Assembly (NCBI GenBank): GCA_023144005.1
Contig: JAGLGN010000006.1
Coordinates: 62,001-126,000 of the forward strand
Source of the DNA: a bacterium
GTDB taxonomy: Bacteria > AUK180
Direction of reading: 5' to 3'
Length of the DNA: 64,000 bases
The position numbers and the translations under genes were made by a program. The notes under the pieces are model-generated. The model did no database searches and was not told where the DNA came from. It saw only the letters and a program-made list of their open reading frames with translations. Positions 5,589 to 48,321 of this stretch are shown piece by piece (position 1 is the first letter of the stretch; each line of letters begins with the position of its first letter).

Positions 5589-5771
5589 GCGGGTGGTTCG
5601 CAATTTACGCTTCGACAGCGGACAATGAATAGTCTGAGATTAGGGAAATTGTCAATTGTCCATTGTTAATTATACTTATTCTCCTCCGCACCAACCTCCA
5701 ACCTCCAGCCTCTATTTTGCTCCCCTCGTACTCTTTTTATCACTTTACACTTCACACCTCACACTTCACAC
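5589..5771. repeat. Noncoding gap with dispersed short repeats
   Basis: This divergent gap holds no credible gene. It carries AATTGTCAATTGTCCATTG, related to the inverted repeat inside the two ~400-bp repeats, then a pyrimidine-rich AACCTCCAGCCTCTA that recurs near 34455, then a CACTTCACAC-type tract matching the complement of the one near 3800. Such mosaics look like dispersed intergenic repeat debris rather than regulatory sequence. Short open frames here (5656-5892 and 5663-5872) have no coding character. Confidence 0.5.
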
Positions 5772-5794: not shown

Positions 5795-5823
5795 TTGACC
5801 GCTATCCTAATTCGGTATATAAT
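5795..5823 (+). promoter_or_regulatory. Strong leaderless promoter of the cyclase gene
   Basis: TTGACC (5795-5800), a 17-base spacer and TATAAT (5818-5823) are close to consensus. The -10 ends five bases before the ATG at 5829, so the transcript should start at the start codon. No Shine-Dalgarno is present between them. Confidence 0.75.
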
Positions 5824-5828
5824 AAACC

Positions 5829-8800
5829 ATGGCAAAAGACAGCTACAAGGCCTTCCTGCCATTTGCAGGTGAGGCGCCGAAAACTAATCTAATCAAAAAA
5901 AGAGGGGCTTTGCTCTTTTCTGATGTTTCCGGATTTACAAAGATGAGCGAAGCGCTTGGGTCCCATGGAAAAGCGGGCACGGAAGCATTGATCGGAATTC
6001 TTGATATGTATTTCGGAAGAATGCTCGATATTATCAAAGAAAACAACGGTTATGTTATTTATTTCGCAGGTGACGGCATGCTCATCTCCTTCATGGATAA
6101 GACGGCTGGCAAAAAATGTTCCTCTGAAATGATGAAAGCGATGGGGGATTTTGATAATATTCCGACACCGTTCGGCGCATTTTCTCTATCGATGAAGACA
6201 ACGGGAGTTATCGGAAGCTGGAATGAGATCATTGTAGGAAATGAGAATGCGGCAAATATCTTCATTGCGGGAGATGCCGTAAAGATGATAGCCGAGATGG
6301 AGGACAGCGCCTCTTCGGGAGAGGAGCTCTGGCAGACATTAAAGGACAAAAAAGACAATAGCAATGATTTTACATACAATTATTCACTCCCGGTCAAGGC
6401 CTATGTGCCTAATGATATACTCAAGATCGCCGAGAAGGGGCAATTCGGAGAACATCGGGCGGTAAGTGTAATATTTTTAAAGGTAAGCGGCATTGATCCC
6501 GCCTCTCCCGACATTCCGCTTTTACAGCAGGTTGTTTCCGAGATCGGAAATATTGTTGAACGATTTGGCGGAGCATTGCAGCTTATTGATAATATTTCTC
6601 CCGGATCTTTCAAAGTACTCATCACTTTCGGTGCTCCATTTTCCCGGCCGAATGATCTAATAAATTCTCTTACCGCAGGAAAGATGATAGTGAAGCAATT
6701 ATCATACTATTCTCAGATCACAGTGAAATGCGGCATCAATCAGGGTTACGCCTTTGCCGGTATAATCGGGAACAGGGACAGGAAAACATATACCTTGCTC
6801 GGTGATGCCGTAAATACCGCTGCACGGCTTGCGCAGTCCGCTGAAAAAGGCGGAGTTTATGTTTCGCGGGATGTAAAACGGCTGACAGAAGAATATTTTT
6901 CATATCGAGAGATCGAGCCTATTCGGGTTAAGGGCAAATCTGAATTACTGAAACGCTTTGAGCCTCTTGGAAAGCGGGATTTCAAAAAATATTCAACTCC
7001 ATATATTGAGCGGAAAGAATATGAAAATATGATAAATGATTTCCTTTCGGACCTCTCCAATTATGTTCTATATGTTATTGGAGAGGGAGGTATGGGTAAA
7101 ACCCGGACCATACATGAGGTGCTCAAGAAGCAGGAGCTTGAGGTTTTCCGATATGAGGCCTCCAATGATCCCGGACGGGGAGATCTGCTCAAGCAGCTGC
7201 TTCTCGATATTACCGGTATGGCGGATCAGCAGGACCCCCAGCAGAAAGTGGAGAGCTTGGCTTCGTTTATATCTTTGCAGAGCGCGGAAGAGGCGGAGAG
7301 GATGTCCGACCTGCTCCCGATACTTTATTATTATCTTCTTGGACGGCCGCTTTCAGGAACGGTCTTTGAGTTTCTTGAGCCAAAGGCCATCAGAGATAAC
7401 TTCATTCAAGCAGCACAGCTCATCTTAAGAAATCAAAGATCGGTGCAGGCGGTGTGGGCGGATAATGCTCATATCCTGAATGAGGATCTGCTGCAAGAAA
7501 TACTTGATCTCTTGCGCCTTGTCAATTCTTTCGACGGGGTACCCATCAAGATGATGCTTTCATCAAGAATAATCTCCGATCAGATCCCTGACGGCAATAA
7601 TAAGGTAATATTCCGCCCGATGAGAGATGCGAAGGCACAAGAGATGGCGCATGCGGTTCTGGGAAATGATGTTCACAAAACGATCGTTGACGGAATTATG
7701 AAAAAAACGGACGGCAATCCGTTTTTCATGGAACAGACCCTTTCATATTTGAGAGAAAAGGGTTTTATTGAGCTGAAAGAGGATATTTGGACACCGGCGG
7801 AAAATTATACCGAGGATCTTTTTCCTGAAAATATTTTTTCGATAGTGATGTCCCGTCTCGATGCATTGGAAGAACGGATCAAAGGAACTCTTATCATCGC
7901 GAGTGTTATGGGCATCCGTTTTTCTGGTGAGCTTCTTTCAAGGATAGATGACAAAAGCGTATTTGACTCTCTCTCTGAAGGGGAAAAGAACGGCATTATC
8001 CATTTGGAAGAAGTCATTGAGATGGAGTATATCTTTGAGCATGCCGTCTTTCGAGATGTTATTTACGACTCTATTCTGCGGGAAAAAAGAAAGAAAATGC
8101 ACCGCACAATCGCAAAAAAGATGGAAACACTGTCACGGAATAAAAAGGCGGATTCATCAGTGCTTGCCTATCACTTCATTAATGCGGAATATTGGAAGAA
8201 GGCATATAAATATTGCGTATCCGCAGGAAAGGCGGCGGGCGAGCAGTTTTTGAACCAGGAGGCAATCAGGCATTTTAATCAAGCACTCGAAGCATGTGAT
8301 CATGGGAAGATCACTCTGGTGGAGGGACAAAGATCGAGCTTGTTTCTTGAGCTCGCTCAGCTGTATTTGAATATTTCCGATTACGAAAATGCGTTGAAAT
8401 ACTTCAAGCTCATCGAAAAGACAGCGCCTTCAAATTCCATCAATAAAATAGATGCACAGATATCTTCTGCTTCCGTTTTCGGGCTCAGGGGTGAATTTTC
8501 CAGACAGCGCGATATGCTGGAAGCAGTATTAAAGAGTATTCCTGATAAGATACGGGGAGCGGCGATCGCAAAGGCAAAGATCCACTCTCAAATGGCGAAT
8601 CTTCTGAGAATACTGGGTGACATCCCAAGGGGGCTTGAGGAAGGGAAAAAAGCTGTGAAGCTTTTAAAGGGAAGAAGCTCTAAAAAATGCAAACTCCTTC
8701 TTTCCGCATCATACAAAGCACTTGGTTCGGTATATATCTCCAAGGGTAATATCCAGGCGGCCTTTGAGGCATTTACACAAGCATACAGAATCGGCGTATT

Positions 8801-9911
8801 GGCGCAAGACCTCAAGGGTCAATGTTATTCCCTCAACAATATCGGAGCAGTACTGAAATTCCAAGGGGAATTAAATAAATCCGAACGGGTATTCCAAAAA
8901 TCCATGAAGATCGCCCGCGCGATCGGAGATCGCAGGATGTGGGCTACGATCCATTCAAATCTCGGTGCTGTTTACAATGGCATGGAGCGATTCGATGACG
9001 CCTTGGTCAATTTCAATAAATGTGTTGATATCTCTAATGAGATCGGGAATCTAAAGGGGCTTCAGGCAGCGTATATGAACATGGGTATCTCTTACAATTT
9101 CATGAAGGTTCAGAATCGGGCGGAAGAATCCTATACAAAAAGTATCGAGATATCAGAGGCTTTGAATTATCCCGCCGGGGTCGCAAAGGGGAATATCAAT
9201 CTGGGGCTTCTTTATAAGAATATGAATGAGCTTGGCAAAGCCAGAAAGGCATTGTCCGAGGCCTTGGAGATCTGTGAAAAGGTATCGGATGAAAGAAGCA
9301 AGGGGATCGCCCTGAATAATCTGGGTCTTATCTATCTGAAGGAATGTGATCATACGAATGCGGAAAAATGTTTTTTCAGATATCTGGAGAATGCGGAAAA
9401 AGTAAGTGATAAAAACGGGATCTGTGTCGCGCATGAAGATCTGGGAGAGCTATACCTCGATACAGAAGATCTTGAAAAAGCCATCTTCAACCTTAAGGCA
9501 GCGGAAGAACTCTCAAGGCAGAACGGCCCGAGAAGAAGGCTTGCAAAAACACTTTTCCGGCTTGGGTATCTTCTAAATGATGAGCAAAGATTTCAAGAAG
9601 GCGTAAAAATACTGGATGAAACAAAAGCCCCGGATACTGAGCTGGAATATCTGCGTTTCCTGGGGGCATTTCAATTTAAGCACGGCAAAACAACTGAGGG
9701 GATCAGGACATTGCGCAAAGGGATCAAAACAGCAGATAAATTTCCCGAGCACATCGAACTGAAGATCTGTCTGCTCTTTGAACTTACACGGAATCTTAAG
9801 AAAAGCGGAGATCACAATAAAGAATTTATCGCTGCCAAAAAGCAATTGATCAGCGAATCAAAGAAGGCCGGCCTTGATGCCGCCGCATCTTATTACAAGG
9901 ATTTTCTATAA
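5829..9911 (+). CDS. Soluble-adenylyl-cyclase-like protein: two cyclase domains, NTPase, TPR array
   Basis: A 1360-residue cytosolic protein with no signal or membrane span. Cyclase domain 1 (about 20-200) has both metal aspartates, D32 (FSDVSGF) and D82 (FAGDG), but a degenerate second half. Cyclase domain 2 (about 205-375) lacks the metal aspartates yet keeps T322, N329 and R333 in YTLLGDAVNTAARL. That split matches animal sAC (ADCY10), where C1 binds metal and C2 supplies the transition-state Asn/Arg and the Thr near adenine. The usual base-selecting Lys in domain 1 (four residues before D82) is Tyr78, so ATP specificity is uncertain. An ATPase domain follows (Walker A GEGGMGKT, 418-425), then about ten TPRs (roughly 860-1330). 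It probably makes a cyclic nucleotide in response to a ligand of the NTPase/TPR part. It stands alone with a leaderless promoter. Confidence 0.85.
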   Translation: MAKDSYKAFLPFAGEAPKTNLIKKRGALLFSDVSGFTKMSEALGSHGKAGTEALIGILDMYFGRMLDIIKENNGYVIYFAGDGMLISFMDKTAGKKCSSEMMKAMGDFDNIPTPFGAFSLSMKTTGVIGSWNEIIVGNENAANIFIAGDAVKMIAEMEDSASSGEELWQTLKDKKDNSNDFTYNYSLPVKAYVPNDILKIAEKGQFGEHRAVSVIFLKVSGIDPASPDIPLLQQVVSEIGNIVERFGGALQLIDNISPGSFKVLITFGAPFSRPNDLINSLTAGKMIVKQLSYYSQITVKCGINQGYAFAGIIGNRDRKTYTLLGDAVNTAARLAQSAEKGGVYVSRDVKRLTEEYFSYREIEPIRVKGKSELLKRFEPLGKRDFKKYSTPYIERKEYENMINDFLSDLSNYVLYVIGEGGMGKTRTIHEVLKKQELEVFRYEASNDPGRGDLLKQLLLDITGMADQQDPQQKVESLASFISLQSAEEAERMSDLLPILYYYLLGRPLSGTVFEFLEPKAIRDNFIQAAQLILRNQRSVQAVWADNAHILNEDLLQEILDLLRLVNSFDGVPIKMMLSSRIISDQIPDGNNKVIFRPMRDAKAQEMAHAVLGNDVHKTIVDGIMKKTDGNPFFMEQTLSYLREKGFIELKEDIWTPAENYTEDLFPENIFSIVMSRLDALEERIKGTLIIASVMGIRFSGELLSRIDDKSVFDSLSEGEKNGIIHLEEVIEMEYIFEHAVFRDVIYDSILREKRKKMHRTIAKKMETLSRNKKADSSVLAYHFINAEYWKKAYKYCVSAGKAAGEQFLNQEAIRHFNQALEACDHGKITLVEGQRSSLFLELAQLYLNISDYENALKYFKLIEKTAPSNSINKIDAQISSASVFGLRGEFSRQRDMLEAVLKSIPDKIRGAAIAKAKIHSQMANLLRILGDIPRGLEEGKKAVKLLKGRSSKKCKLLLSASYKALGSVYISKGNIQAAFEAFTQAYRIGVLAQDLKGQCYSLNNIGAVLKFQGELNKSERVFQKSMKIARAIGDRRMWATIHSNLGAVYNGMERFDDALVNFNKCVDISNEIGNLKGLQAAYMNMGISYNFMKVQNRAEESYTKSIEISEALNYPAGVAKGNINLGLLYKNMNELGKARKALSEALEICEKVSDERSKGIALNNLGLIYLKECDHTNAEKCFFRYLENAEKVSDKNGICVAHEDLGELYLDTEDLEKAIFNLKAAEELSRQNGPRRRLAKTLFRLGYLLNDEQRFQEGVKILDETKAPDTELEYLRFLGAFQFKHGKTTEGIRTLRKGIKTADKFPEHIELKICLLFELTRNLKKSGDHNKEFIAAKKQLISESKKAGLDAAASYYKDFL

Positions 9912-10079: not shown

Positions 10080-13000
10080 TCATGAGATTTCAATCAACAG
10101 CTGATCCAGCAATATCCTGATTTCATGGATATCCGTTGATTCTACCTGCCTGACATTATTTATTGCCTTCAGACATTCCAGTATCGCTTTTTCCCTGTCT
10201 TCCGCTGTCGGGATCTTTTCAAGACACTTGATCGCATTGAAAATGAATTTCATTTCCTTTTCATCAGCATCAAGCTCATTCAGCATTTCAATAATATCCG
10301 AGTTCAAGGTTTCAGGATCATATGATACCGACTCGGTGAACGCGAAGGGCTCCTCTTCCCACCAAATGCCGTTCGCCAGATAGGAGACCTCTGTAGTAAA
10401 TATAAACTCATCACCTGTATCGGGCAGTCTCGCAAAGACATAATACTTTCTGGTTTCCCCGGCAGTGATCAGCTCATTCCAATCGACGATATTCGATTCA
10501 ATCTCACCGACAGGTATTACTTCTATTATCTCAGTTCCTTCCGGAAGTATCTCACTGATCTTCGTCTGAAGGTCGAAGACATTGGATTTCACGCTTATCC
10601 TGACCGTATTGTATCCACCGGAGATTACACTTTCTTCTTCCGGCTTGACGTAGTCAATTGCGGCGGCAAGGATATCTCCAGCATCTTCAAGAGAGCTGAA
10701 TATATCAAAGGCAAAGTATACCGTCTTTCCTTCTCCATAATTATTCCCGATGATGACGGGTGACGGCAGATGCGGCGATACTGTCACATAGCCGCTCTCA
10801 AAGGACCCAAGGGATTCCACTGTATAGGTCGTCCCTGTAGTTGTCAATACTCCTTCTTCGGTGATCGGTGAATTAACAAGATTAATGGTCAGGTTATATC
10901 CATCATAGACACCGCTGTAACGGATCCCGAGAACTTCAGGAACTACTCCTTCTCCCAGGAAATGATAATAATGAGAGGTGATAAGGCCCTTTCCCGAATA
11001 GACATGTTCTCTCAATTCTTCCGAGGTATGCCCTTCGAGATTTTCCGCATTCCCGAGAATAATATATTCGTTATATGAACCGGACCTCATACCGGAAACA
11101 AATTCACCGCTTGACTCTACAATGTCATATGTAATGATCCCTCCCAGATTATCAAAGTATTCAGATAATTGTTCATGCTGGTCTTCAGAAACATTGCTGA
11201 AATTTTCCCATATAAGGATACTTGGAATAACTGAAATATCCGCACTGATATCAAAAGCCTCCACAAGCTCAAACTGCAATGAGTTGATTGATTCAACATT
11301 TCCGGTATTATCAATACTTCTATATTCAATGGTATGCAGACCATAACCAAATGAGGCCAGATTCATAGATTCTGTATAATGGCGCCACTCGTCATCGTCA
11401 AACCGGTATTGCGTATACTGAACTCCGCTCAATGCATCATCAGCATGAAGTATGATCATACTTCCTTTTATAACCTCATTCAAACTGCTTATCGGATTAA
11501 CTTCTATCCGAGTCTGTGCAGAAGTGAGGTCAATTGTGAATGAGGTGAAGTGCTCGTCTGAGTATTCCCCTCCAAGATCTCGAGCATACAGATAAACCTC
11601 ATATACCCCATCGTCTGTAACGGGTTCATTATCGAGGTCTTTTCCATTCCAGGTAAAAGTAATTGGAACCTCGTTTGGAGCATTTGCCTCACTCCAATAA
11701 ATCTCATCTCCATCTCGATTGAAAATACCCAAATGAACAATCGATTCCTCTGACACCGAAACACTCACTGCCAGGCTATCATTTACGCCGTCTCCATTTG
11801 GACTTAAATATTCCGGGGCAATTGAAATTGAAAGGATTTCCGGCGGACCGGGCTCATTGTGATGATAGCAAAGTGCATAATATGAAAGATGGAGCATCTC
11901 GATTGTAATCTGATTGCTGTCGTAATCCCTTGTAGTGAGAAGTTCGTCCGGCTGTGCTATAACCCATTCCGAATTCTCTTCATCGTAAGTGTAAGCCTGA
12001 TAATTCGCTTCATCATACCCGAGAATAGTCAAATCATCGTAATTAAAGGCTATCTCTATATTATCTTTGAAATAATTGATCCCCGATCTTGAACTGATCT
12101 CGTATACATCTCCTATCACCATCCCAGATATTTCCGAGTACTCAGGCACTGAAGAAACATTGTCAACACTTGTTATCTCAATGTACTCCATTCCCTGGTA
12201 TAGGTCGTCACTCTCAATCTCAACTTCAACAAGACCATCACTACTTACAATATCTCCCGGGGCATTGTAGTATTCCGGATCACATGGATCTTCCCAAATC
12301 ATATATCGAATCTTAATATCTGTTATATCGTTGGCTTCGTCATAATCAGAATACACGAGGTGGCCCTGGTCACTCCACTCATAAAAAGACTTAGCACCAT
12401 TATTTTCTCTTTTAGTCTTGAATTCAAATAACATTCCCTGATCCATTCCCGTATAATCCATGTAGAAGATTGCCTTCCGAATATAATCATTTGCCGGATC
12501 GTCATCCAATGTTCGAATGAAGCTGATCTTATCACCATTTCCAGTCCATTGTATAGAATTTTCATCTATACTGTTGTCAGTAAAATATGTTAATTGAACA
12601 GGTGGATGAAAATTATCTGTATTGTAGGGCTGAATATATCCTTCATAAGGAATATTCCTTTTAATTAACCAAATGTTCCAAAAACCTCCTGCACTAGACA
12701 AATATATAATTTTAGATCCATCAGGAGAGAATTCTGGATTTTTCTCCATTGCAGAATCATTTGTAAGCCATATTCGTCTTTCAATGAAGTCTTCATCATG
12801 GACAAAGACGAGATCTTTCCTTCCACGAGTTTCAGGATCATACCCACTTACTTCGAAAAATGAAGCTACCACTGCTTCTTCATATTGTTCTCCAGGAGCA
12901 ATGCTACTCGTAGTATAAGAGAAACAAGATACCCAAATAGGAGGATCATACTCATCAAGAAATAATTTAAAATCAATTACTTTCGCTGGGTAAATCTGAG

Positions 13001-16000
13001 GAAAATCGTCAATAATCAAGGATTTCTGGTACAATTCACCGGTAATCCACACAGGTAGTCTAAAGTATCTATTCGCTATAGTATAGGACAATTTTCTCGA
13101 ATTATTCGCTGATTTCAAGTGACTTATTATATCAATATGATTTCCATCATAATACGTTTCTTCTCCACCAGAATGATGCACAGACTTCAGCTCATTTCTT
13201 TCTAATGCGCCCCAGTCAGTAAATGTTGACTCAATAAACGCAATACGAGGGATCCTGTATTTATCAACGAACCAAGTGGGTATATTTATAACTTCTTCCG
13301 AACTATATAAATTCCCCTTCTCCGATGTACTGATATCATGTCTAGTAAGTTCACTGCGGTTGTCAATATAGAAAAGATATTTGGAATCAGTCGGTTCCCA
13401 GATTGGTTCTGTTGAATGATTGCCAGGTAGATTGTTTGTAATATTCTGCGGGTCACTCATGTGAGAAAGTTCCGTTTGAATCATATCTATCGTTACATTG
13501 GTTGTTGAATCCGTAAACCAATGAAGATTGTCATCTACCCAGACTTGAACTTGATATTCTGCATCACCTAAAAGATTTCCATCTGCATCTGTCCCATCCC
13601 AGGATATCACATATTCTCCATTATTCTCTACCGGAAATAAGACTTTTACAAGATTTGTATTTACAATCGGACCATTATATATTGCAATAACACATTCATA
13701 ATACAATCCAGAACCATCATCATGTGCTGCAATCCTAAATTCTACATTATCGTTGCACTCATCGTTATTTGGACTGAATATACTTGGACTTACATCAATC
13801 GAGTCAATGATAGGAGGTTGATCGTCAAGAAATATTTGTTGATGATGAACTTCCTCTGAATTTCCCACATTATCCTGGCTATAATATTCAATTGAATTTA
13901 AACCCGGAAGCATAAGTGTGTCATGAATTCTAAAGGGCGCGGTATAGATCTGCCAAGAGGAGTCGTTGATTCTAAAATATGTATTTTCTACTCCTGTCGC
14001 AAGCTCGCCTTCATCCCTTGCGGTTAAAGAGATCTGGGAATAATTCACAACATATGATATTTCTTGTGTTTCGTAAACACTATACCTCAATGATATATCA
14101 GTAACTGGTGGCAATATATCTTGTTTTCCTTCTATCACCGCAACAGAAATCCCGCCTGCTTTACATTGGTCATAAGCATAGAATCTTCCTTCCAGTTCAT
14201 CTTTTTGGAAAATCTTAATCCGATTGGCTGCAAGTGAACCGGCACCAGGTGAAGTTACGATCTCGTCATACCCGTCAAGGTCTATGTCACCGCAATCGTG
14301 AATACAGCCATTGGTATTAGGAGCAAGATATGCATTGAAATTGTAAATAGGGACCGGATAAGCAGAATCCATATTAAGAATATCATATACTCGGATATTT
14401 GAATCATTGCCCTGCACCTCGCCTTTCGAGCAAACAATCTCTTCATAGTTTTTACCACTGATATTTCCACAACTCAGATATACTCCTGAGGTTACAATAT
14501 CTCCAAATGCAAAGAAAGATTTTTCAGGAGAAGGATAATCTTCGTTGATATTCTCATAGCTAAATATGTTAATTCGTGAATCATTGCTCGCGCCCGGTCC
14601 CTTTCCTACGATTATTTCATCTACTCCATCATCATCAACATCTCCACAGGAAACATTGGCTCCATGTTTTATATCATTTGAAAACGCAAAAAAGGATTTT
14701 GTTTCAGTAGCGTTATAACTAGAGTCTGTTTTCTCAATCTTGAATATTTTGACTTTGGCATAATAGTTCAAATGATGGCCCTTTCCCGCAATGATCTCAT
14801 CCACTCCATCGCCGTCAATATCACCGGCAGCAATCGCGCAACCATAATTATTTACTCCAAATGCACAAAAACTGATCAGTTTTTCCATTGTATAAAACGA
14901 GTAAATATCAATATAGCTGTCGTTGCCATCTTTTGATATTTTTGAAACAATGATCTCTTCCACGCCGTTTCCATCAATATCTCCAGTAGTGACATTCACT
15001 CCTTTTGTTGGAAATTCACTAACACCGAAAGTCTCGGGAAAGCCGTCTTTGGTAAATGATTTTATCATATCTCCTGATCTTGAAGCAGTTATAATATCGG
15101 TATTTTGCACCGGCAATTCAATATCGATATATGTATCGTATGCTGATTCCGGCTTAGCCGGTTCAATATTGCATGAAGAATCTTTGGAAATACTCTTGAA
15201 GTAAATCCTATCGGTGTTTTTTGAAAATTGGGTCCAGGGGAAATTCGAACTTGTGCTATGGGTATATTCAGTCCCACATGCGTCAATATTCCAGATTTCC
15301 CAAGAACCGTCGTTAATTTTGTAATTAATGTTAAATCCCAAAGGATCGCCCGAATTATCCGCGCCACTCCATGAAACTGGGGTAAAAAGTTTCTTGTCAG
15401 TAATCGGTGAGGCCAAACTTACCACTGTAGAAAATGGGGGGGTTACATCTGGTTCGACCGGATTGTCTTTTCTCCCGTAAACGTACACAATATTGCTGAA
15501 TTCACCACTCCAAAAGGAGTATTTTTTTGATACGGTAATTTTAAGTCTGTTCTCATTCTCTATTATCTCGAAACTGGCTTCGGTATTGCTGTTTTCTTCG
15601 TATTCAACACCGTCATAATCATAGATAGGGAATTCCGGATCACCATCTATGTAGAATACTTTTTCAGAATCAAAGGCTGATAACTGTACTGCAATCAGTT
15701 CATTTCTGTTCCCGCCGTACGAATACTCAAATGGGTTTATAGAGGGTCCCATGTTTTCACCGTCCTCGACTGTAACACTAAAATTGATCGCCTCAGGATC
15801 AAAAGGACTCCACATATCCTGAGAATTTATCCAGTAGATAAATGTTCTTACTGTACAGCCCGCGATTCCGCAACCGTAGTTTTTGAAGGACCCCGGTACA
15901 ACTTCCGCCCAGCCATAGTCATTAATATAAGAATCGAATTCAAGACCGTTACTGCTTGCTGAAATTTCCGGCTGCGAAGAATGAGTGTACGGAAAAGTAA

Positions 16001-18425
16001 CATCCATCCTGATCTCACGGCGATTCGCATGATAAAGGCCGAAAACATCATAAGCGAAAAGTATTGTCTCATCCGCATATTGTTCATATGTGTATGTGGT
16101 TGTTTCAATATTAAAATTGATTCTTCTTACAGTGCTATTGCCTGCTTTGTCAATTGCGTAAATATCTAAGACATGATGCCCTTCTGAAGCGATCTGTTCC
16201 CCTTCATTGTAAGGATTTCCGTCTAAAGTTATATACGAAATGTCACTGTTAATGTTTTGATCGATCATGAATATTTGTGGGAGGATTATTGTATTCTGAA
16301 ATATGTCTCCATCTTTAACACCGTAAACATCTATCAAAGGTGCAGTTTTATCGATAATTATTTTACTCTCGAATCTTGTAGTATTACCTGCAATATCGCT
16401 GGCATATACATTCAGATTGTAAATACCTTCATTATCAAGTTCAATGCTGTTTTCAGAAGGAATCCCATCAAGAAGTATCTCCGATTCTACCAGATGATCT
16501 TCTATAATATCAATATTTAAAGCAACATTTGTATTAAAATATCGTTTGCTGCCCGATGAAATGGAGCTGGCGCTATTTATTTCCGAAACTAATATTTGTG
16601 GAAATGTTTTATCAACATTTATCAGTATCTCATCTTCGGTGACATTGTCCGCACCATCGGTAACAACTAATTTGAGTTTGTATTCTCCGCCACTTGTTAA
16701 AGTGGTCGTGTCCCAGACAACAAGTAAAGAATCGGTAACTGAAATATTTTGCTGCTTATTAATAATTGTGGTGTACTCCGTAGAATCCTTTTTCGCATAT
16801 GATATTTCATAACTACGGATATGATCATCTGTCGCTGTACCCTTGATGTTACATGATGCGCCAACCCATTGATCTGCAACCGGATATGTGATCTCCGCTA
16901 TAGGAGGAACTCTATCAAGAAGAACATTTACAATGTGTCGTTTAAATAAACCGTCACCATCCATACCTTTCAAAATAAATCGATATCCGCCATCAGTTTC
17001 TAAAGCAGGATCCCAATTGTAGACAACCTCTGAAGAAACGGATTGATCGGAAACATATATATCCCCACTCATATTGAAAACGGGATCATCCAGTGGCAGC
17101 AGAGTTCTCTCGCCTGTAGTTAAGTTCTTCTTCATCAGGATCCAGTAAATATCGGATGAAGAAATCGGAGAAATAGAGGCGGTTACATCAATAAGCTGAC
17201 TACTGGCAATCCCCGTCCCGTCAGTAGGATATTCCAATACTGCTTGGGGTACGCTCCCTGTTTCTTCAAGTTCAATATGAGCAAACTGTCCCCATATCTC
17301 AGTATAGAATTCACCGTCAATATTTGAAAAAATACTTATCTCACTTCCTCTGGCACATGTTAGAATGTCCTCAGTTTCTTCTCCTCTGAAATATCCCGTA
17401 TTTGGGATAAGAAAATCTGAACTTCTTTGCTGGAATACTTCAATGACCGTTCCTGTGAAATCAATTATTGTAGAATGTCCTCCCAAACCGGTGATGAGAA
17501 TTTCTGGGTTTCCCGTATTGTCATAATTAAAAATACGAATTCCCATAACTGTGGTAGGTATAGTGAATAGGGTCCTATTGAATGATATCGCTCCATCATA
17601 CGTAAGAATATCGACATTACCATTGACATCGCCTAATAGAATATCCGCAATTCCGTCACCATCAAGATCTCCAGCAGCAGGAGGACAGACCAGAATATTT
17701 CCGCTATCGAAAGTGATCCAACCGGCAGTATAATTCCATACAGCAACACTACCGTCTCCACAATTTGCGAATATTTCAGAGATACCGTCCTCGTCAATAT
17801 CCTTGAGGGTAAGATATGTATATTCTCCTGAAGTGACAGTATGGGTTTCGATTTCTACCCATGAAGTTCCATCGTGATCATCCCACACATACACATTGCC
17901 ATCTGAAGTCCCTGCAACAAAATCAAGATCTCCATCGCCGTCCATATCGGACGCAATTGGCGTATCACTGATAGGTACATTAATGTCTCTTGGCCAGCCG
18001 GCCACATCGCTGCCACTTGAATGGAATGCGTGCATCTTGATATTGCCTACAGAATCCTTTGAACAGACAAGTATCTCAGAAGCCCTGTCATTATCAAGAT
18101 CGACGAGAATCGGAGAAGTATAGAAGACTCTTCCGGTCAGGGCTTTCGGCCAGCCCGTAACAACCTTTCGATACCGATTCCAGACGGTGAGCCGTCCGTC
18201 ATCTGAAACAGTCGCGATCTCACGGCCTGTCGCCAGAAAGATTCCTTCTATTCCGTCAATATCTCCGAGTGCAGAAGAATCGAGTGAGACAGATGGAATC
18301 AGAATAAAGGCAATGACAAGTGATAATAAACCAAATATCTTTGAATCCAATTTTATTTTATTGTACATATTCAACCCCTTATTATTCCTCCTTTTCTGAG
18401 AAAATATATTGATCTTACTCTTCAT
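10080..18425 (-). CDS. Giant secreted FG-GAP/Ig-like/PD40 repeat protein
   Basis: A ~2781-residue exported protein. A basic N-terminus precedes a hydrophobic span (GLLSLVIAFILIPSVSL). Rough order: FG-GAP/VCBS repeats with DxDxDG calcium-type loops (62-315); Ig-like modules; a second FG-GAP block (1135-1395) with several DIDGDGVDEI loops; an FlgD-like Ig module with SPNND (1545-1640); PD40/TolB-like WSPDG repeats (1655-2020); another FlgD-like module with SPNGDGVND (2205-2295); a Rossmann-like segment (2390-2580); and a C-terminal Ig-like stalk. It is most likely an adhesin or surface scaffold. I chose ATG 18425, with GGAGG five bases upstream; 18437 and 18368 are alternatives. It overlaps the ankyrin gene by 11 bases, so it is the third gene of the RHS operon. 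Local GC swings strongly (17 of 60 bases at 13081-13140 against 34 of 60 at 10321-10380), suggesting mosaic origin. Confidence 0.8.
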   Translation of the reverse strand: MKSKINIFSQKRRNNKGLNMYNKIKLDSKIFGLLSLVIAFILIPSVSLDSSALGDIDGIEGIFLATGREIATVSDDGRLTVWNRYRKVVTGWPKALTGRVFYTSPILVDLDNDRASEILVCSKDSVGNIKMHAFHSSGSDVAGWPRDINVPISDTPIASDMDGDGDLDFVAGTSDGNVYVWDDHDGTSWVEIETHTVTSGEYTYLTLKDIDEDGISEIFANCGDGSVAVWNYTAGWITFDSGNILVCPPAAGDLDGDGIADILLGDVNGNVDILTYDGAISFNRTLFTIPTTVMGIRIFNYDNTGNPEILITGLGGHSTIIDFTGTVIEVFQQRSSDFLIPNTGYFRGEETEDILTCARGSEISIFSNIDGEFYTEIWGQFAHIELEETGSVPQAVLEYPTDGTGIASSQLIDVTASISPISSSDIYWILMKKNLTTGERTLLPLDDPVFNMSGDIYVSDQSVSSEVVYNWDPALETDGGYRFILKGMDGDGLFKRHIVNVLLDRVPPIAEITYPVADQWVGASCNIKGTATDDHIRSYEISYAKKDSTEYTTIINKQQNISVTDSLLVVWDTTTLTSGGEYKLKLVVTDGADNVTEDEILINVDKTFPQILVSEINSASSISSGSKRYFNTNVALNIDIIEDHLVESEILLDGIPSENSIELDNEGIYNLNVYASDIAGNTTRFESKIIIDKTAPLIDVYGVKDGDIFQNTIILPQIFMIDQNINSDISYITLDGNPYNEGEQIASEGHHVLDIYAIDKAGNSTVRRINFNIETTTYTYEQYADETILFAYDVFGLYHANRREIRMDVTFPYTHSSQPEISASSNGLEFDSYINDYGWAEVVPGSFKNYGCGIAGCTVRTFIYWINSQDMWSPFDPEAINFSVTVEDGENMGPSINPFEYSYGGNRNELIAVQLSAFDSEKVFYIDGDPEFPIYDYDGVEYEENSNTEASFEIIENENRLKITVSKKYSFWSGEFSNIVYVYGRKDNPVEPDVTPPFSTVVSLASPITDKKLFTPVSWSGADNSGDPLGFNINYKINDGSWEIWNIDACGTEYTHSTSSNFPWTQFSKNTDRIYFKSISKDSSCNIEPAKPESAYDTYIDIELPVQNTDIITASRSGDMIKSFTKDGFPETFGVSEFPTKGVNVTTGDIDGNGVEEIIVSKISKDGNDSYIDIYSFYTMEKLISFCAFGVNNYGCAIAAGDIDGDGVDEIIAGKGHHLNYYAKVKIFKIEKTDSSYNATETKSFFAFSNDIKHGANVSCGDVDDDGVDEIIVGKGPGASNDSRINIFSYENINEDYPSPEKSFFAFGDIVTSGVYLSCGNISGKNYEEIVCSKGEVQGNDSNIRVYDILNMDSAYPVPIYNFNAYLAPNTNGCIHDCGDIDLDGYDEIVTSPGAGSLAANRIKIFQKDELEGRFYAYDQCKAGGISVAVIEGKQDILPPVTDISLRYSVYETQEISYVVNYSQISLTARDEGELATGVENTYFRINDSSWQIYTAPFRIHDTLMLPGLNSIEYYSQDNVGNSEEVHHQQIFLDDQPPIIDSIDVSPSIFSPNNDECNDNVEFRIAAHDDGSGLYYECVIAIYNGPIVNTNLVKVLFPVENNGEYVISWDGTDADGNLLGDAEYQVQVWVDDNLHWFTDSTTNVTIDMIQTELSHMSDPQNITNNLPGNHSTEPIWEPTDSKYLFYIDNRSELTRHDISTSEKGNLYSSEEVINIPTWFVDKYRIPRIAFIESTFTDWGALERNELKSVHHSGGEETYYDGNHIDIISHLKSANNSRKLSYTIANRYFRLPVWITGELYQKSLIIDDFPQIYPAKVIDFKLFLDEYDPPIWVSCFSYTTSSIAPGEQYEEAVVASFFEVSGYDPETRGRKDLVFVHDEDFIERRIWLTNDSAMEKNPEFSPDGSKIIYLSSAGGFWNIWLIKRNIPYEGYIQPYNTDNFHPPVQLTYFTDNSIDENSIQWTGNGDKISFIRTLDDDPANDYIRKAIFYMDYTGMDQGMLFEFKTKRENNGAKSFYEWSDQGHLVYSDYDEANDITDIKIRYMIWEDPCDPEYYNAPGDIVSSDGLVEVEIESDDLYQGMEYIEITSVDNVSSVPEYSEISGMVIGDVYEISSRSGINYFKDNIEIAFNYDDLTILGYDEANYQAYTYDEENSEWVIAQPDELLTTRDYDSNQITIEMLHLSYYALCYHHNEPGPPEILSISIAPEYLSPNGDGVNDSLAVSVSVSEESIVHLGIFNRDGDEIYWSEANAPNEVPITFTWNGKDLDNEPVTDDGVYEVYLYARDLGGEYSDEHFTSFTIDLTSAQTRIEVNPISSLNEVIKGSMIILHADDALSGVQYTQYRFDDDEWRHYTESMNLASFGYGLHTIEYRSIDNTGNVESINSLQFELVEAFDISADISVIPSILIWENFSNVSEDQHEQLSEYFDNLGGIITYDIVESSGEFVSGMRSGSYNEYIILGNAENLEGHTSEELREHVYSGKGLITSHYYHFLGEGVVPEVLGIRYSGVYDGYNLTINLVNSPITEEGVLTTTGTTYTVESLGSFESGYVTVSPHLPSPVIIGNNYGEGKTVYFAFDIFSSLEDAGDILAAAIDYVKPEEESVISGGYNTVRISVKSNVFDLQTKISEILPEGTEIIEVIPVGEIESNIVDWNELITAGETRKYYVFARLPDTGDEFIFTTEVSYLANGIWWEEEPFAFTESVSYDPETLNSDIIEMLNELDADEKEMKFIFNAIKCLEKIPTAEDREKAILECLKAINNVRQVESTDIHEIRILLDQLLIEIS

Positions 18426-19371
18426 GCTTTCCTCCATACTTTTTAAGTAGTTTGATTATCTTGTCAAATTCATTCTGTCGCCTTATATCGCCTTCAAGAT
18501 CCGTTCGCTCTGCAATAGCAATATCCAATGGTGTTTGACCTTTTTCATCTTTTATATTCGGATCAGCACCCCTTTTTAAGAGAATTTCACATGCCTCGTA
18601 GTGTCTTCTAAATACTGAATTAAAAAGAGGGGTCCAAGTTGTCTCAGGAAATCCTCCGGAAATTTTAGCGCCGCTGTCCAATAAAAGTGTAATTGCAGTT
18701 AATTGATTCCTTTGAGCAGCCCCGTTCAGTGGTGTCATTCCGTGTTGATCGTTGATTTCCGTATCCGCTCCTTTTTCAAGCAGTAATTTTACAATTTCAT
18801 TATATCCCTGTGAAGAAGCTTTGTGTAGCGCAGTGCTTTTTGTGAATATTGCTTTATTTACATCTTCAGTTTCAATAAATTTCTTCACTGCATCTATATC
18901 ATTTCTGAATACGGCATAATACAATTCATCTGTTTCGATAACTTCATTTTTAATAGTATCTACAATAAATACCGATTGCCTTATTAGGGATTGACCAATG
19001 TATAATCGGTATATACCTTTTTCCTGGGTCTTTTCCATATGACACCAGTCTTTAGGGTTATTTGACGTCCCAAATGCCCAGGCACCGGCGTCAGCATCGA
19101 AAAAATGGATCTCTAATTTCTTCTTTTTACCGTTCTGTTCGATATACAGATATGATCTGATATGTGCAAAAAGCATTTTCATTCCAAGTGTAGGACCGGA
19201 ATCTATTGTGATTATTTCCAAATAATAATGCACTGGCCCTTCCTCGGTCTGAAATGTTTGTTTTTCATTTACCCATCTTCCTCTACATCCTGAAGAAGAA
19301 ATCAGAATGATCAAAACAATACTTGGCAATATTACATCTTTCAGCAGCCAATCCCTACTACCAATCTTCAT
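18415..19371 (-). CDS. Ankyrin-repeat lipoprotein, candidate immunity protein
   Basis: A 318-residue protein. A lysine-containing start and a hydrophobic span run into ISSSGC, a plausible though atypical lipobox, so it is probably a membrane lipoprotein facing the periplasm. Residues ~30-150 form an unrecognised beta-rich domain. Residues ~155-310 hold four to five ankyrin repeats (for example TALHKASSQGYNEIVKLLL and TPLDIAIAE). I chose ATG 19371 because it follows the RHS stop by one base (TAG-T-ATG) and gives a clean signal peptide; a longer frame to 19533 would lie inside the RHS gene and lose it. A small ankyrin lipoprotein directly after a toxin-tipped RHS gene fits an immunity protein; that role is inferred. 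Composition is AT-rich like the RHS gene. Confidence 0.8.
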   Translation of the reverse strand: MKIGSRDWLLKDVILPSIVLIILISSSGCRGRWVNEKQTFQTEEGPVHYYLEIITIDSGPTLGMKMLFAHIRSYLYIEQNGKKKKLEIHFFDADAGAWAFGTSNNPKDWCHMEKTQEKGIYRLYIGQSLIRQSVFIVDTIKNEVIETDELYYAVFRNDIDAVKKFIETEDVNKAIFTKSTALHKASSQGYNEIVKLLLEKGADTEINDQHGMTPLNGAAQRNQLTAITLLLDSGAKISGGFPETTWTPLFNSVFRRHYEACEILLKRGADPNIKDEKGQTPLDIAIAERTDLEGDIRRQNEFDKIIKLLKKYGGKHEE

Positions 19372-19372
19372 A

Positions 19373-22300
19373 CTATTTTCCGGTCCTTTTTTTAAGCATC
19401 TGGTCCCAAACATGTTTCGAAAGCATATTCGAATGATGGCTTTCGCCAAATAATAATGCTTTGGTAGCAACTTCAATATCTTTTGCCTTATCATCTGTTC
19501 TTCCCGTAAAGAAAAATGAAAAAGCCACAGCATTCATGTAGCAGTTAGTGCCTAGAAATTCTGTAAGTATTGGCCCGCCGACTAATTGAACTCGATCTTT
19601 GTTGGAATAGACATTGTAGTAGTTGACAACATTACTCATATCCATTTCGTAATCGACCCTTTGCGGGGTTGCGAAGGTAATAATAGTTTGTACTTCTTGT
19701 GAAAATGAGGGGGAGGCTTCCTTTACAATATTCCCTCCGTGGCTATGCGCAATTATATGTATTTTTTCATTTCCAATTATTGTATAGTTATCAATATATT
19801 CAAGCAAGGCCTTAGCGCCTGCGGTTCTTGCCTCTGGAGTATTAGCTTCAGAAAGTGATGCGGGCCAATAAATTGGATGAACTGGATTGCCTTCGTCCCC
19901 AAGCGATCTCTGAATATAATTCATATACTCTTCATCCGGAGTCCAAGATTCATCACCAGACCCCGTACCCTTCACGGTAATTACCACATATCCGGCATAA
20001 TCAATATTGGATAATGGATTATTACTTCCGTAAATATATCTGTTTAAAGATTGAGGATTGGCGGAGCTTCCAATGAGTTTATCCTTTGAAATAAATCTGC
20101 CTAATTCCGAAAAGTAATACCTTGCTCCGAAATTGTCGAGGCCCGTTTCAATGTCCCTTTCCTTTCCTGTAAATAAATGAGCCTCTTCTTCTCCTTGAGA
20201 TAGGATCATATTTCCGAACGGATCCAATGTATTTTCAGTAACTATCTCCCCAAGCTCATCGGTAATGATTATATTATTGCCTATATAATCCTGATGATAA
20301 TATGCTATGCTTCCAGTACTATTTTCTGCCAATGTAATTCTATTTCCTGCGTATACAAAAGTATTTTGTCTTGCACCGGTTTTATCGTATTCTTCGATTA
20401 CATTTCCTCCAATATCATAGATATAGATCGTTGTATTGCCAGGAGTTGTCTTAATTATTCTCCTTCCTTCGCCATCATAAGCAAATGATATTGAATATTC
20501 AATAATCCCGGGTTGATTCAAATCAGGCTCTCCCGGATTTTGGAAATCCACTCGTGTTAGCAAATTATCATAGTTATAACTAAATATTTTTTTCTTGACT
20601 TGACCACTTAGATTAGAGACCGTTTCCGAAATAATATTTCCATTGTTGTCATATACATAATTATGCGTACTTCCATTGCTACCTGAGTCAACGGTCATTG
20701 TGCTCAACTGATCTGAATTTCCCGTGTAATTGTAGCCAATATCTTCATAACTGGATTGCTGAGACACTCTATTTCCAGTAGAATCATAAGCGTAGCTTGC
20801 ATCATTGGCGTCAGGATAATCCACCGATGTAAGCCTGATCAGTGGATCATAAGTATAATTAGTGGTACTCCCGTTAATTTTAGCCCTAGAAATAATACTA
20901 CCGTTCTTATCATAGTTAAAATCGTCTTTATACATTAGTTGATTAATTCCTTTAAATATTTGATGAGAATCAATCAATCCTCGAGCGTTGTAAGTAAATT
21001 TCGTTGTTGAAATTGTTCCGTAATTAGAAGTTAATTCCTTTTGTGTAACATTCCCGAGGTTGTTATATTCATACCCAGCTATATCTTTATTATCGTACTT
21101 GATTGTATCCACCCATCCATGATCGTTCCTCTCATATAATACTTTCTTTCCCGATGGATAAGTTATTTCCTTTAATTCACCAGTCTCATAATATATATAT
21201 GTTGAAATATACTCTGCATCGTTAATAGTATCCTTTTTCTGGACAAATCTCCCCATAGAATCATAGACATATTCTGTGCTACTCTCTATCTCTAGTGGGG
21301 ATTCCGGCAAACTATAATATGATATTTTCTCCGTTAAATCATTATCAAAATACTTAAAGGTTTTTTTCGTGTCATCTGGGTATTTTCTTTCTATTATCCG
21401 ATTGAAGTCATCATAATCGAGATAAATTTTGTTATCATTCATGTCTTGTGTATACTCTACGAGGCTAGATGATATATACGAGGTATGCTTAATCAGGCCT
21501 TCGCTGCATCCATCGTATCTATCGTATATATCATAATTTATATCTGTAATGAATCCTCGAGCATTAGTAATCCGTGCTATATCATTAAACATTCCATTGT
21601 ATTCGTACGTTGTGACTCCATTTGTACCTGGTTCATCACAACGGATTATTCTTCCAATCTTATCCATAGTGAAAATCGTCTGATTACCTTCCGGATCCTT
21701 AACAATCTTTTTCATATTGCCATCATCATATGTAATTGAAGAATTTGTCCCATCAGGATAATTAATCTGAATCAATCGATATTGTTTATCATATACATAC
21801 TCTGTTGTCTTTTTCTCAGCATCAGTAATTGTCTTGATCTTTCCACCAGGATGATATGAGTATGTCGTTGATAACCCAGCTTCGTCAATTTTGATGAGTC
21901 TTTTAATAGAATTATAATAATAGGTTGTGACTCGACCTGCGTCATCAACGGTTACTATATTATTAATATCATCCAACGTATATGAAATATTTGTTTTGTC
22001 CGGCCTTGTTTCATTCAACACTCTCCCAAGATTATCATAGTTGAATTCACTATAATTCCCAAGATTATCAAATTCTAGCTTGATTAGACCATTGGGATAA
22101 TACTCATACTTATTAAAAAGTTCACCATTCCTACGTACTTCCGTAAGATTTCCTTCAGCACTGTACGAAAGAGAATGTACAAGATCTTCATTCAACTCAA
22201 ATTTCTCGGTCACAAGACCCTTGCTATTGTATGAAAATCTTGTGTCGGAAATTTGTGCAAGATATCGTCTCTCTATATTTCCCCTAATATTTCCCTCATC

Positions 22301-23824
22301 ATAGTATTCTGTATTTATTTCGATATTATTTCCATTCAATGTTTCACTTTGTCTAGTTTGCAGGCCGATTATGTACAGCCCTGTTGGGGTCTCCGAATTG
22401 AACTCATCTATATTTAAATAAGTATAAGTGTAAATATATGACAACGGATTTGTATATAAAGTTATATTACCGTAAGCATCATATTCATATGATTCAAGAT
22501 AATCAATTTCTTGATCATCTTCTGGAGACTTTCGAGTTCTTGTTGCTTGTTCAAGATTTAGTTTCTCTTTATCAACCCAATCCTGATGAGGAGGTCCATC
22601 AATAACCCAGTCATTTACAGTAACAACACCGGGTTGCTCACTTCTCACCATTTTGAATGTATAAATAAATTCTCCAGCAGCTTCAGTGTTATTAATATAG
22701 AATTTTTCAAACCAAAATTTGCTCAAATATCCGTTTGGGTCGGTTACTTCCGTATAATGAAGGTATATTCTACCCCAATAAGGATCTGCACATGCTTCAC
22801 CTTCATCATATGTATTTTTCACTAGATCAAATCTATATGTAGATACTTCATCTGAATTTTCTGCACTTTTTAGAGTTTTTGTAAGCTGCAATCCTTGAAG
22901 AAATTCAGAAGTACAAATACTGCCGTTCAATTTTTCCTCGTTTTCAATTGTATCAAATGACAGGTAGTCATATTTAACAATAGCACCAGATGAATATGTA
23001 ATTTCCGTAAGCTTCCATTGGAAATCATTGTAAATATCTGTATCATAGAGCTCATAGGAGTACTTTGTTTCCCGGCCATTTGGATTAACGACTTTTGTTA
23101 ATAACGAATTATCGTCATATTCATATGAAAAAGATATTTCCACCTCTTCATGATTCTTATATTTAATTCTACTGATCAAACCCTTATCGGCATCGAAATA
23201 TTCAAATGTGTAGTCATATCTCCCCGCTGAATCAAATACCGATACTATCTGAAATGGTGGCAAGGGACTTCTAATTAATCGAATATTATTATCATTCTTG
23301 TCCAGAATCTTTATTGGAAGTCCATGAAAATTGAAGGTAATCTTCGTCCCATTTGGTTTAGCTAATACCCATGTATTAGTTGTATCTTCATATATCAGTT
23401 TATCGCGGACTCCTGGCTCCAATGGGATTCCCTCATCTGACGGGTGTCCCGTCATGAAATAGGTTTGTCGAGAACCATCTCCATAGATTACTATGGCTTT
23501 ATTACTTGCGCTGGGATAATCTGTTTCAATACGATTAATTCCATTTACACTGAACGACCATTCGCAATTCTGATATCGCAAATTGCTATTATATGTTCTA
23601 GTAATAATTAATGGGATTCCAACTCCAGGTGCTGAAACATCTGTGTGTCGAATAATAATATTACCGTTAAACAGATTAATATCCTCTTCCGTACGATCGC
23701 TGGCAAATGCCTGCAATGGAGAATAACCAAGTCCATTTACACCCGGTTCAGTCGGCTCTGCAACTGAATAGCAATTAAGCCCGATTATTAGAAGTAATAA
23801 TACAATTGAAAATTTAGTTTTCAT
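19373..23824 (-). CDS. RHS/YD-repeat protein with lipase-like C-terminal tip
   Basis: A 1483-residue protein with a Sec signal peptide (MKTKFSIVLLLLIIGLNCYSVA) and an RHS shell of many YD repeats (about 380-1200). A typical RHS core follows (GKERDIETGLDNFGARYY, then GRFISKDK and NRYIYGSNNPL) before a variable tip from about residue 1279. The ~205-residue tip has AHSHGG, the nucleophile elbow of alpha/beta hydrolases (S1361), with D1410 and H1463/H1464 placed to complete a triad, so it is probably a lipase or esterase. RHS shells enclose and deliver toxic C-termini; a lipase tip would attack membranes. It has its own promoter and GGGAGAGAGGA site and is followed by the ankyrin lipoprotein one base later. 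AT-rich composition suggests horizontal acquisition. Confidence 0.88.
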   Translation of the reverse strand: MKTKFSIVLLLLIIGLNCYSVAEPTEPGVNGLGYSPLQAFASDRTEEDINLFNGNIIIRHTDVSAPGVGIPLIITRTYNSNLRYQNCEWSFSVNGINRIETDYPSASNKAIVIYGDGSRQTYFMTGHPSDEGIPLEPGVRDKLIYEDTTNTWVLAKPNGTKITFNFHGLPIKILDKNDNNIRLIRSPLPPFQIVSVFDSAGRYDYTFEYFDADKGLISRIKYKNHEEVEISFSYEYDDNSLLTKVVNPNGRETKYSYELYDTDIYNDFQWKLTEITYSSGAIVKYDYLSFDTIENEEKLNGSICTSEFLQGLQLTKTLKSAENSDEVSTYRFDLVKNTYDEGEACADPYWGRIYLHYTEVTDPNGYLSKFWFEKFYINNTEAAGEFIYTFKMVRSEQPGVVTVNDWVIDGPPHQDWVDKEKLNLEQATRTRKSPEDDQEIDYLESYEYDAYGNITLYTNPLSYIYTYTYLNIDEFNSETPTGLYIIGLQTRQSETLNGNNIEINTEYYDEGNIRGNIERRYLAQISDTRFSYNSKGLVTEKFELNEDLVHSLSYSAEGNLTEVRRNGELFNKYEYYPNGLIKLEFDNLGNYSEFNYDNLGRVLNETRPDKTNISYTLDDINNIVTVDDAGRVTTYYYNSIKRLIKIDEAGLSTTYSYHPGGKIKTITDAEKKTTEYVYDKQYRLIQINYPDGTNSSITYDDGNMKKIVKDPEGNQTIFTMDKIGRIIRCDEPGTNGVTTYEYNGMFNDIARITNARGFITDINYDIYDRYDGCSEGLIKHTSYISSSLVEYTQDMNDNKIYLDYDDFNRIIERKYPDDTKKTFKYFDNDLTEKISYYSLPESPLEIESSTEYVYDSMGRFVQKKDTINDAEYISTYIYYETGELKEITYPSGKKVLYERNDHGWVDTIKYDNKDIAGYEYNNLGNVTQKELTSNYGTISTTKFTYNARGLIDSHQIFKGINQLMYKDDFNYDKNGSIISRAKINGSTTNYTYDPLIRLTSVDYPDANDASYAYDSTGNRVSQQSSYEDIGYNYTGNSDQLSTMTVDSGSNGSTHNYVYDNNGNIISETVSNLSGQVKKKIFSYNYDNLLTRVDFQNPGEPDLNQPGIIEYSISFAYDGEGRRIIKTTPGNTTIYIYDIGGNVIEEYDKTGARQNTFVYAGNRITLAENSTGSIAYYHQDYIGNNIIITDELGEIVTENTLDPFGNMILSQGEEEAHLFTGKERDIETGLDNFGARYYFSELGRFISKDKLIGSSANPQSLNRYIYGSNNPLSNIDYAGYVVITVKGTGSGDESWTPDEEYMNYIQRSLGDEGNPVHPIYWPASLSEANTPEARTAGAKALLEYIDNYTIIGNEKIHIIAHSHGGNIVKEASPSFSQEVQTIITFATPQRVDYEMDMSNVVNYYNVYSNKDRVQLVGGPILTEFLGTNCYMNAVAFSFFFTGRTDDKAKDIEVATKALLFGESHHSNMLSKHVWDQMLKKRTGK

Positions 23825-41213: not shown

Positions 41214-41975
41214 TTATTTACTGTCAATAAATTCCAATTTACCCTTTATGATATCCGGCTTATACCCGGCATCAAATAAGACCTGAAAATAGGGCCGGGC
41301 GGTTTTATACTTCTTACGGCTATAATAGAGGTCAGCCATCATAAATAGGCCATCGTTTCGGAACTCCTTGATCTCTGAGGCTTTCTCATAATATTTGATC
41401 GCATCCTTCCAATGATCTCTTAATGTGGCAAGGTTGCCGAGCATCAGATAGATCTGCCCTTTTTCGGGGGAAGTAAAATTGAAGCGCTTCAGATAATCCC
41501 GGAATTCCTTTTCCGCATCGGAGTACAGCTTCGCCTCCAGATAGCAGGTATAAATAGAATCCATGATCTTGATCAGGTCGTATTCCACCTCGGAATACCG
41601 GAAAAGCATCCTATATTCGTAGATGGCACGCTCATAATTCTTGAACTCTTCCCTGTAAATATCAGCAATATACCTTTGAGCCCTATAAGAATATTCACCC
41701 TTCTCTCTGGAGAGGGCAGTGACTTTTGTAAATTCGATAACCGCAAGTTCGTATCTCTTAAGGTCCACATAATAGATGCTTCCGATATTGAATTGTGCCG
41801 GAATAGCATGCTTGGACCTGCGGCTCTTGAATACTATGGTCTGAAACTTTGAGATGGCGGCTTCAAATTTCTGTTTCTTCCATAATTTATATCCCTCGAT
41901 ATACGCGGCACGGTCAGAGGCACATGAGGACAGAAAAAGCACAATAAGGAGAAGGGGTATTGCTTTATTCTTCAT
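41214..41975 (-). CDS. TPR outer-membrane lipoprotein (BamD/YfiO-like)
   Basis: A 253-residue protein with a lipoprotein signal ([11 protein letters not shown], cysteine at 18, Ser at +2 suiting outer-membrane sorting) and five or so tetratricopeptide repeats, for example [13 protein letters not shown] and KYYEKASEI. Size and repeat placement resemble BamD/ComL, the essential lipoprotein partner of BamA, but general TPR lipoproteins look alike and no other Bam gene is nearby. It overlaps the gyrA 3' end by 11 bases and is followed one base later by mutS2, so it is expressed with DNA-topology genes. Confidence 0.75.
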
Positions 41976-44400: not shown

Positions 44401-44411
44401 TTTCAGCTCCG

Positions 44412-47190
<2,779 letters not shown>

Positions 47191-47194
<4 letters not shown>

Positions 47195-48321
47195 TCTATG
47201 GGACGGATCGGCATGATGATAGTGAAATATTCGTTACTGTCCAGCGGTTTCGTAAGTACCGGCGCGCGCTGATCGATAAAGTTAAATTCTATCTTTTCCT
47301 CATCAAGATTCATAAGAACTTCCTTCAAGTAATTGATATTGAAAATGATCTTTATGGATTCCTTGTTATCTTCGAGCTCTACCGCCTGCTGCGCCTCGCC
47401 GACCTCCGTAAGGTCGGTATTGACCATCAGTACATCTTTCTCAAAACTCAGATTAACATTATAACTCTTCTTCTCGGCAAGCACGGAAACGAATCGGATG
47501 GCCTTCAATACGGCAATCCTGTCCAATACGATCGTCTTCATTGAGGATGTATCTGGGATTATTGACTCATAATCGGGATATGTGCCGACGATCAATTTAC
47601 CCACGATCTCTGTATTCTCGTAATTGAACGCTATCTTGCCGTCGCCTTCAGGGAGGACCACAGAAACAGGGACATCGGTCTGAGGAAGTGAACTCACAAG
47701 GAAACTCAGTAATTTTTCCGGAACGATAAGCTTCAGGTTCTGCGCCGGAGGTTTCTGAAATTCAACCTTACTCTTATTTACTACAAGACGATGGGTATCC
47801 GTGGACACCATATTAAAGAGGCTATCATCTGTGGAGATCTCCCATAATGCCCCCATGAGAACCATATTTGAGGTATCTCTTGAAACGGCATATGCGGTCT
47901 TTCTGATATTTTCTTTAAGAAGTTGGGCGGATATTATAAAAGAGTCCTTTTCTTCGAATTTCGGGAAAACCGGATATTCGTCCTCCGAAAGGCAGGCAAA
48001 TGTTACCTTTTTAAGGCCGGCATTAACCTTTAAACTCTCAGAACCCGTTTGTTCGACCTCAAGCTCCTCTTCATCAAAATCCTTCAATGCGGCATTAAGG
48101 AATTTCCCGGGTATACCGATCGCGCCTTCCTCGACAACATCCGCTTCTACTCTTTTTTTCAGATTTATCTCGTAATCAGTGGCCTGCAGAATCAAGCCGT
48201 CGCTCTTAGATGCTTTGATCAAAATGAATGAAATCGCCCTGTATGTGGTAGCCGGAACTATGATGGTATTCAGCTCCGCGACCGCGTTCCTCAAATCATC
48301 TGTTTTCACCTTGAATTTCAT
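47191..48321 (-). CDS. dnaN: DNA polymerase III beta sliding clamp
   Basis: A 376-residue three-domain clamp. It has typical segments such as MKFKVKTDDLRNAV, TDTHRLVVNKS and a C-terminal YFTIIMPIRPIE that fits the M-P-x-R end of the family. The clamp holds polymerase on DNA. GGAGG lies six bases before the ATG, and a good promoter precedes it. dnaA and recF, the usual neighbours, are not in the window: upstream is only a small membrane-protein gene. Confidence 0.97.

Follow-up and report, generated by a model that had tools for sequence, protein, structure and literature searches.

Soluble adenylyl cyclase-like enzymes of bacteria have been known since the work of Kobayashi, Buck and Levin (2004) on Chloroflexus (cited in PMC3085406, PMC11006738 and PMC3918592), and the reviews that cite this work refer to the Chloroflexus cyclases as bacterial homologues of the animal enzyme ADCY10 and as bicarbonate-activated. 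In human ADCY10, bicarbonate is bound by Lys95 and Arg176 (PMC12867704, Table 1; PMC12250328), adenine is contacted by Thr405 (PMC12250328), the base is recognised through water by Lys334 of the C2 domain (PMC12867704, Table 1), and Lys144 is the pyrophosphate receptor (PMC12867704). Two non-mammalian soluble cyclases lack one of the bicarbonate residues, and their authors report control by pH, not by bicarbonate (PMC12867704). The C-terminal part of ADCY10 is predicted to contain a STAND domain with a P-loop (PMC12802110). The protein described here, encoded in a 64,000-nucleotide stretch of bacterial DNA (the window), is a well-preserved ADCY10-like tandem cyclase. As far as the citing reviews describe the Chloroflexus enzymes, it resembles them in being a bacterial ADCY10 homologue and is set apart from them by the absence of the bicarbonate switch Arg. 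Since bacterial enzymes of this type have been reported since 2004, the kind is already known, and it is the expansion of the family that is of interest.

The gene occupies a single open frame of 1360 codons on the forward strand (5829-9911), as do all its features given below, and its 1360-residue product contains two class III cyclase domains, after which come a STAND NTPase and TPRs. It is a real gene. Comparison with its orthologue in a sister genome (93% identity over residues 1-757) gives a dN/dS of 0.14 overall; the ratio is 0.07 for C1, 0.06 for C2, 0.15 for the NTPase and 0.18 for the TPRs. The gene is thus maintained by purifying selection, most strongly in the two cyclase domains, where the ratio is lowest. 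A promoter-like element, TTGACC-17-TATAAT (5795-5823), matches the consensus at 11 of 12 positions; the sister genome shares this element and not the sequence lying further upstream. The ATG starts 6 nt past the -10 element, and the mRNA may therefore be leaderless. The gene lies outside any same-strand gene run, its upstream neighbour being divergent and its downstream neighbour convergent. A short direct repeat, CACTTTACACTTCA/CACCTCACACTTCA, is also present upstream of the promoter-like element, at 5741-5768.

The C1 domain (residues 22-166; 5892-6326) is recognised weakly by Pfam (E = 0.024) and is aligned to ADCY10 C1 by the family profile. An alignment-defined linker (residues 167-205; 6327-6443) leads to the C2 domain (residues 206-380; 6444-6968), which matches Guanylate_cyc (PF00211; E = 2.5e-15) over residues 294-373. 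C1 carries the predicted metal ligands D32 (5922-5924) and D82 (6072-6074), corresponding to human D47 and D99, as well as K123 (6195-6197), which corresponds to the pyrophosphate receptor K144 and is Lys or Arg in 33 of 38 tandem proteins. The positions equivalent to the Asn and Arg of C2 are occupied in C1 by K152 and E156. Conversely, C2 has a Lys at the first metal-Asp position and a residue other than Asp at the second, and retains T322 (6792-6794), corresponding to the adenine contact T405 (Thr in 33 and Ser in 5 of the 38 proteins), N329 (6813-6815; human N412) and R333 (6825-6827; human R416, which contacts the alpha-phosphate). D32, D82, N329 and R333 are all among the 20 of 384 positions that are invariant in the 38 tandem proteins, a set that includes the window protein and comes from several genomes and genera, with some close relatives among its rows. 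The naive chance that all four half-site residues would be invariant is 5e-6, a figure that ignores motif clustering and the presence of close relatives. Judging from the aligned sequences, the half-site conservation pattern is clearly under selection. The tandem has the cyclase homology domains, metal Asp pair and transition-state Asn and Arg of class III nucleotidyl cyclases and, in addition, the marks of ADCY10/sAC-like enzymes, namely a C1-C2 tandem with its half-sites split in the ADCY10 orientation and a P-loop STAND NTPase after C2. An AlphaFold model of C1-C2 computed from two sequences has unusable confidence (pLDDT 33). Support for the shared site therefore comes from homology to the ADCY10 structures, by analogy with which D32/D82 and N329/R333 would meet in space as one site.

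Human ADCY10 was the best match of the window protein alone among solved structures, over both domains (E = 2e-17). A profile of 36 relatives aligned to ADCY10 residues 36-469 in one continuous C1-linker-C2 alignment (E = 1.1e-63), the next-best structure being CyaB (6e-35). The human enzyme (4clf, 4oya) shares the metal aspartates in C1, the Thr, Asn and Arg in C2 and the STAND P-loop that comes next, and differs at Lys95, Arg176 and Lys334 (Tyr78, Ala155 and Leu252 in the window protein) and in the FDKG loop of C2; this comparison covers C1-C2 and the P-loop domain, and the predicted haem-binding and autoinhibitory regions of ADCY10 lie outside it. The phylogeny of the paired domains, which an earlier sequence-only reading of the locus had called for, was built from 34 domains each of C1 and C2 plus nine single domains, after removal of the active-site columns, the ADCY10 rows being the segments aligned in the structure search and not the full-length sequence. 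ADCY10 C1 falls in the bacterial C1 clade (support 98/86) and ADCY10 C2 in the bacterial C2 clade (97/87), and the same grouping is recovered with all columns. One shared tandem ancestor is favoured because the domains group in this way, C1 with C1 and C2 with C2. The alternative that ADCY10 and the bacterial tandems are separate fusions of single domains, with a convergent division of labour, is quite unlikely: the grouping that speaks against it is supported with and without the active-site columns, and forcing ADCY10 C1 and C2 together makes the tree 29.7 log units worse, although the AU test does not reject it at 0.05 (p = 0.08) and the domains are short and the branches long. A single origin of ADCY10 and the bacterial tandems is therefore the favoured reading of these trees. 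The sequence-only reading had proposed a bacterial enzyme of the soluble adenylyl cyclase type with complementary half-sites, in which domain 1 keeps D32 and D82 and has lost the Asn/Arg side, and domain 2 has lost the metal Asp and keeps T322, N329 and R333, as in the division of labour of ADCY10; profile, residue alignment and invariance, and C1/C2 clades bear it out. Its further proposal of an NTPase and then TPRs after the cyclase pair agrees with the Pfam architecture.

The STAND-type P-loop NTPase (residues 385-760; 6981-8108) is matched by AAA_22 (residues 412-575) and AAA_16; among the 36 relatives scanned, AAA_16 matches all and AAA_22 matches 21. Its Walker A motif, GEGGMGKT (residues 418-425; 7080-7103), conforms to a GxxGxGK pattern that is invariant in 36 relatives. 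In the Walker B motif, D545-N546 (7461-7466), the second acid is replaced by Asn, as also in two relatives (L052 and L066), while most relatives have [DE]D; NTP hydrolysis may therefore be slow or absent, and the NTPase may bind nucleotide and not hydrolyse it. No solved structure was matched when the NTPase region alone was used as query. The TPR region (8109-9908), with many Pfam matches from about residue 800 on, is of the GPSM2/kinesin-light-chain type (TPR_12, E = 3e-38), and its best solved relatives are GPSM2/LGN. The repeats of GPSM2/LGN and kinesin light chain bind peptides or proteins. By analogy with other STAND proteins, the STAND-TPR part would sense an input.

Taken as a whole, the protein is probably a cytosolic ADCY10-like class III cyclase with one shared C1-C2 site under the control of its STAND/TPR half. 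C1 would give the metal aspartates D32 and D82, and C2 would give Thr322, Asn329 and Arg333, so that the intramolecular pair would form one catalytic site for the conversion of an NTP, with ATP the most likely substrate and cAMP the most likely product; the STAND NTPase and TPRs would detect a ligand, either protein or peptide, and in turn switch the cyclase. For the window protein itself, the shared site, the activity, the product and this control are all inferred by homology. Leu252 in place of Lys334, the changed FDKG loop, the Walker B Asn and the AU p value of 0.08 count against the proposal. The loss of the base Lys, the poor recognition of C1 by Pfam and the degenerate Walker B might also suggest a pseudoenzyme, in which the cyclase pair, though catalytically inactive, would bind nucleotide and act as a regulator of the NTPase/TPR part. 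We regard this as very unlikely, as none of the four metal and transition-state residues varies among the 38 tandem proteins, which span several genera, and the two cyclase domains have the lowest dN/dS of the protein.

Y78 (6060-6062) aligns with human K95 of the bicarbonate site, where only 3 of the 38 tandem proteins have Lys, and A155 (6291-6293) with R176, the bicarbonate switch (PMC12250328), where none of the 38 has Arg. The Lys95 and Arg176 of bicarbonate-regulated mammalian-type enzymes are thus replaced by Tyr and Ala. Because Arg176 corresponds to Ala155, Arg is found in 0 of 38 and Lys95 is rare, a mammalian-type bicarbonate switch is not expected in the family and is predicted to be absent from the window protein. 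The mammalian base-recognition pair is half kept, Thr405 being present as Thr322 and Lys334 being replaced by L252 (6582-6584), and the human FDKG loop of C2 is altered. The sequence-only reading had placed Tyr78 at the base-selecting Lys. In our alignment, Tyr78 corresponds to the bicarbonate Lys95 and the base Lys334 to Leu252; the mix-up arises because C1 and C2 are pseudo-symmetric, so that an alignment of C1 to C2 places all four residues, Y78 and L252 as well as human K95 and K334, in the same column. The doubt about a cAMP product that had been built on Tyr78 loses that argument and survives through Leu252.

At the Lys334 position the 38 tandem proteins have Lys (21), Leu (8) or other residues (9), and a tree from which these columns were excluded requires at least five state changes, the Asn and Arg remaining constant throughout. 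In the subfamily of the window protein (nine tree rows, support 100/100), the Lys is absent from eight of nine members. It is conceivable from this variation, beside a constant Asn/Arg, that the subfamily uses the same shared-site chemistry for a product such as cGMP, a cyclic pyrimidine or a mixture, its base recognition having been remodelled around Leu252 and the altered C2 loop; Pycsar cyclases, which belong to class III, do handle other bases, with a different set of residues (PMC11224242). We hold this to be unlikely, given that the adenine contact Thr322 is retained, that the window protein does not carry a Glu of the guanine type at the Lys334 position, that Lys334 of the human enzyme reaches the base only through water, and that a Leptospira relative likewise has Leu there. 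Leu252 is weak evidence for a product other than cAMP, because Thr322 is kept and loss of Lys334 recurs in the family. ATP as substrate and cAMP as product remain the most likely assignment, with moderate doubt.

Relatives outside the lineage include a plasmid-encoded cyclase of Leptospira borgpetersenii (WP_002741124) and a protein of Microvirga lotononidis. Both are C1-C2 tandems with the same complementary half-sites and are only about 25-27% identical to the window protein; at the Lys334 position, the former has Leu as in the window protein and the latter Arg. No relatives were found among viral contigs when these were searched with the alignment of the subfamily. The genome of the window (2.67 Mb) contains 27 cyclase-domain matches, and seven genomes of the phylum contain 11 to 29 each. 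Thirteen intact tandem proteins with complete half-sites are encoded in this genome. The 12 further copies (L052 to L062) have invariant half-sites and, as far as read, a like domain order, and they show variation at the positions equivalent to Lys95, Arg176 and Lys334; seven of them retain Lys334, mostly together with a DKG loop. There are about a dozen sAC-like tandem enzymes per genome in the lineage, and this number of paralogs is less expected than the kind of enzyme. The TPRs of each of the about 13 paralogs would probably link it to a separate input. A more far-reaching idea, which we find unlikely, is that the paralogs keep the split site but have diversified in base recognition, so that subfamilies would make different cyclic nucleotides in response to different STAND/TPR inputs and without bicarbonate control. 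An anti-phage role as a Pycsar-type cyclase is highly improbable: weak PADLOC matches to PycC (best E = 1e-12) lie mainly over the generic C2 motif, the architecture is ADCY10-like, and about 13 paralogs are present. The PycC identity was rejected, the matches being weak and generic and no effector being found among the neighbouring genes scanned. The NCBIfam model TOMM_kin_cyc was also discarded, as its 108.6 bits are far below the cut-off of 705.75 bits.

Five cNMP-binding proteins or domains are encoded in the window genome. The canonical RSAT motif of the phosphate-binding cassette is present in two of them (L095 and L097), and in two others (L064 and L098) the Arg is replaced by His. At L064:3580-7651 (G000:C35:233k-237k), the gene for a cyclase-STAND-TPR protein with a single cyclase domain overlaps one that encodes a CRP-like cNMP-binding protein; in the latter, His-Thr stands in place of the cassette Arg-Ser. 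In five of seven genomes of the phylum, a cNMP-binding match lies on the same strand as a cyclase match and ~3.3 to 3.7 kb downstream of it. These genes support a signalling role for cyclic nucleotides in this lineage; they do not identify the receptor of the window cyclase, and the genes neighbouring it included neither a receptor nor a phosphodiesterase gene, which also counts against the proposed function. That the family has expanded in a genome of 2.67 Mb suggests that this uncultured lineage relies heavily on signalling by cyclic nucleotides. Moreover, the findings support the view that the asymmetric pairing of C1 and C2 in animal soluble adenylyl cyclase arose in bacteria. Natural sAC-like enzymes without the bicarbonate switch, and partly without the base Lys, would be useful for probing these residues, and the family offers a handle on whether bicarbonate control is ancestral.

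Other features of the window were recorded. Two giant open reading frames lie at 10080-18437 (2785 aa) and 24014-32653 (2879 aa), the first of which has FG-GAP and Ig-like repeats and a match to CHU_C, a type IX secretion signal. An RHS-repeat protein (19373-23824, minus strand) overlaps by ~160 nt, in a different frame, an ankyrin-repeat frame (18415-19533, minus strand) that lies downstream of it, which may represent an RHS protein with its partner or a frame break. Finally, gyrA, gyrB, a DciA-like gene and dnaN are clustered at 41965-48321, in an arrangement like that found near a replication origin.
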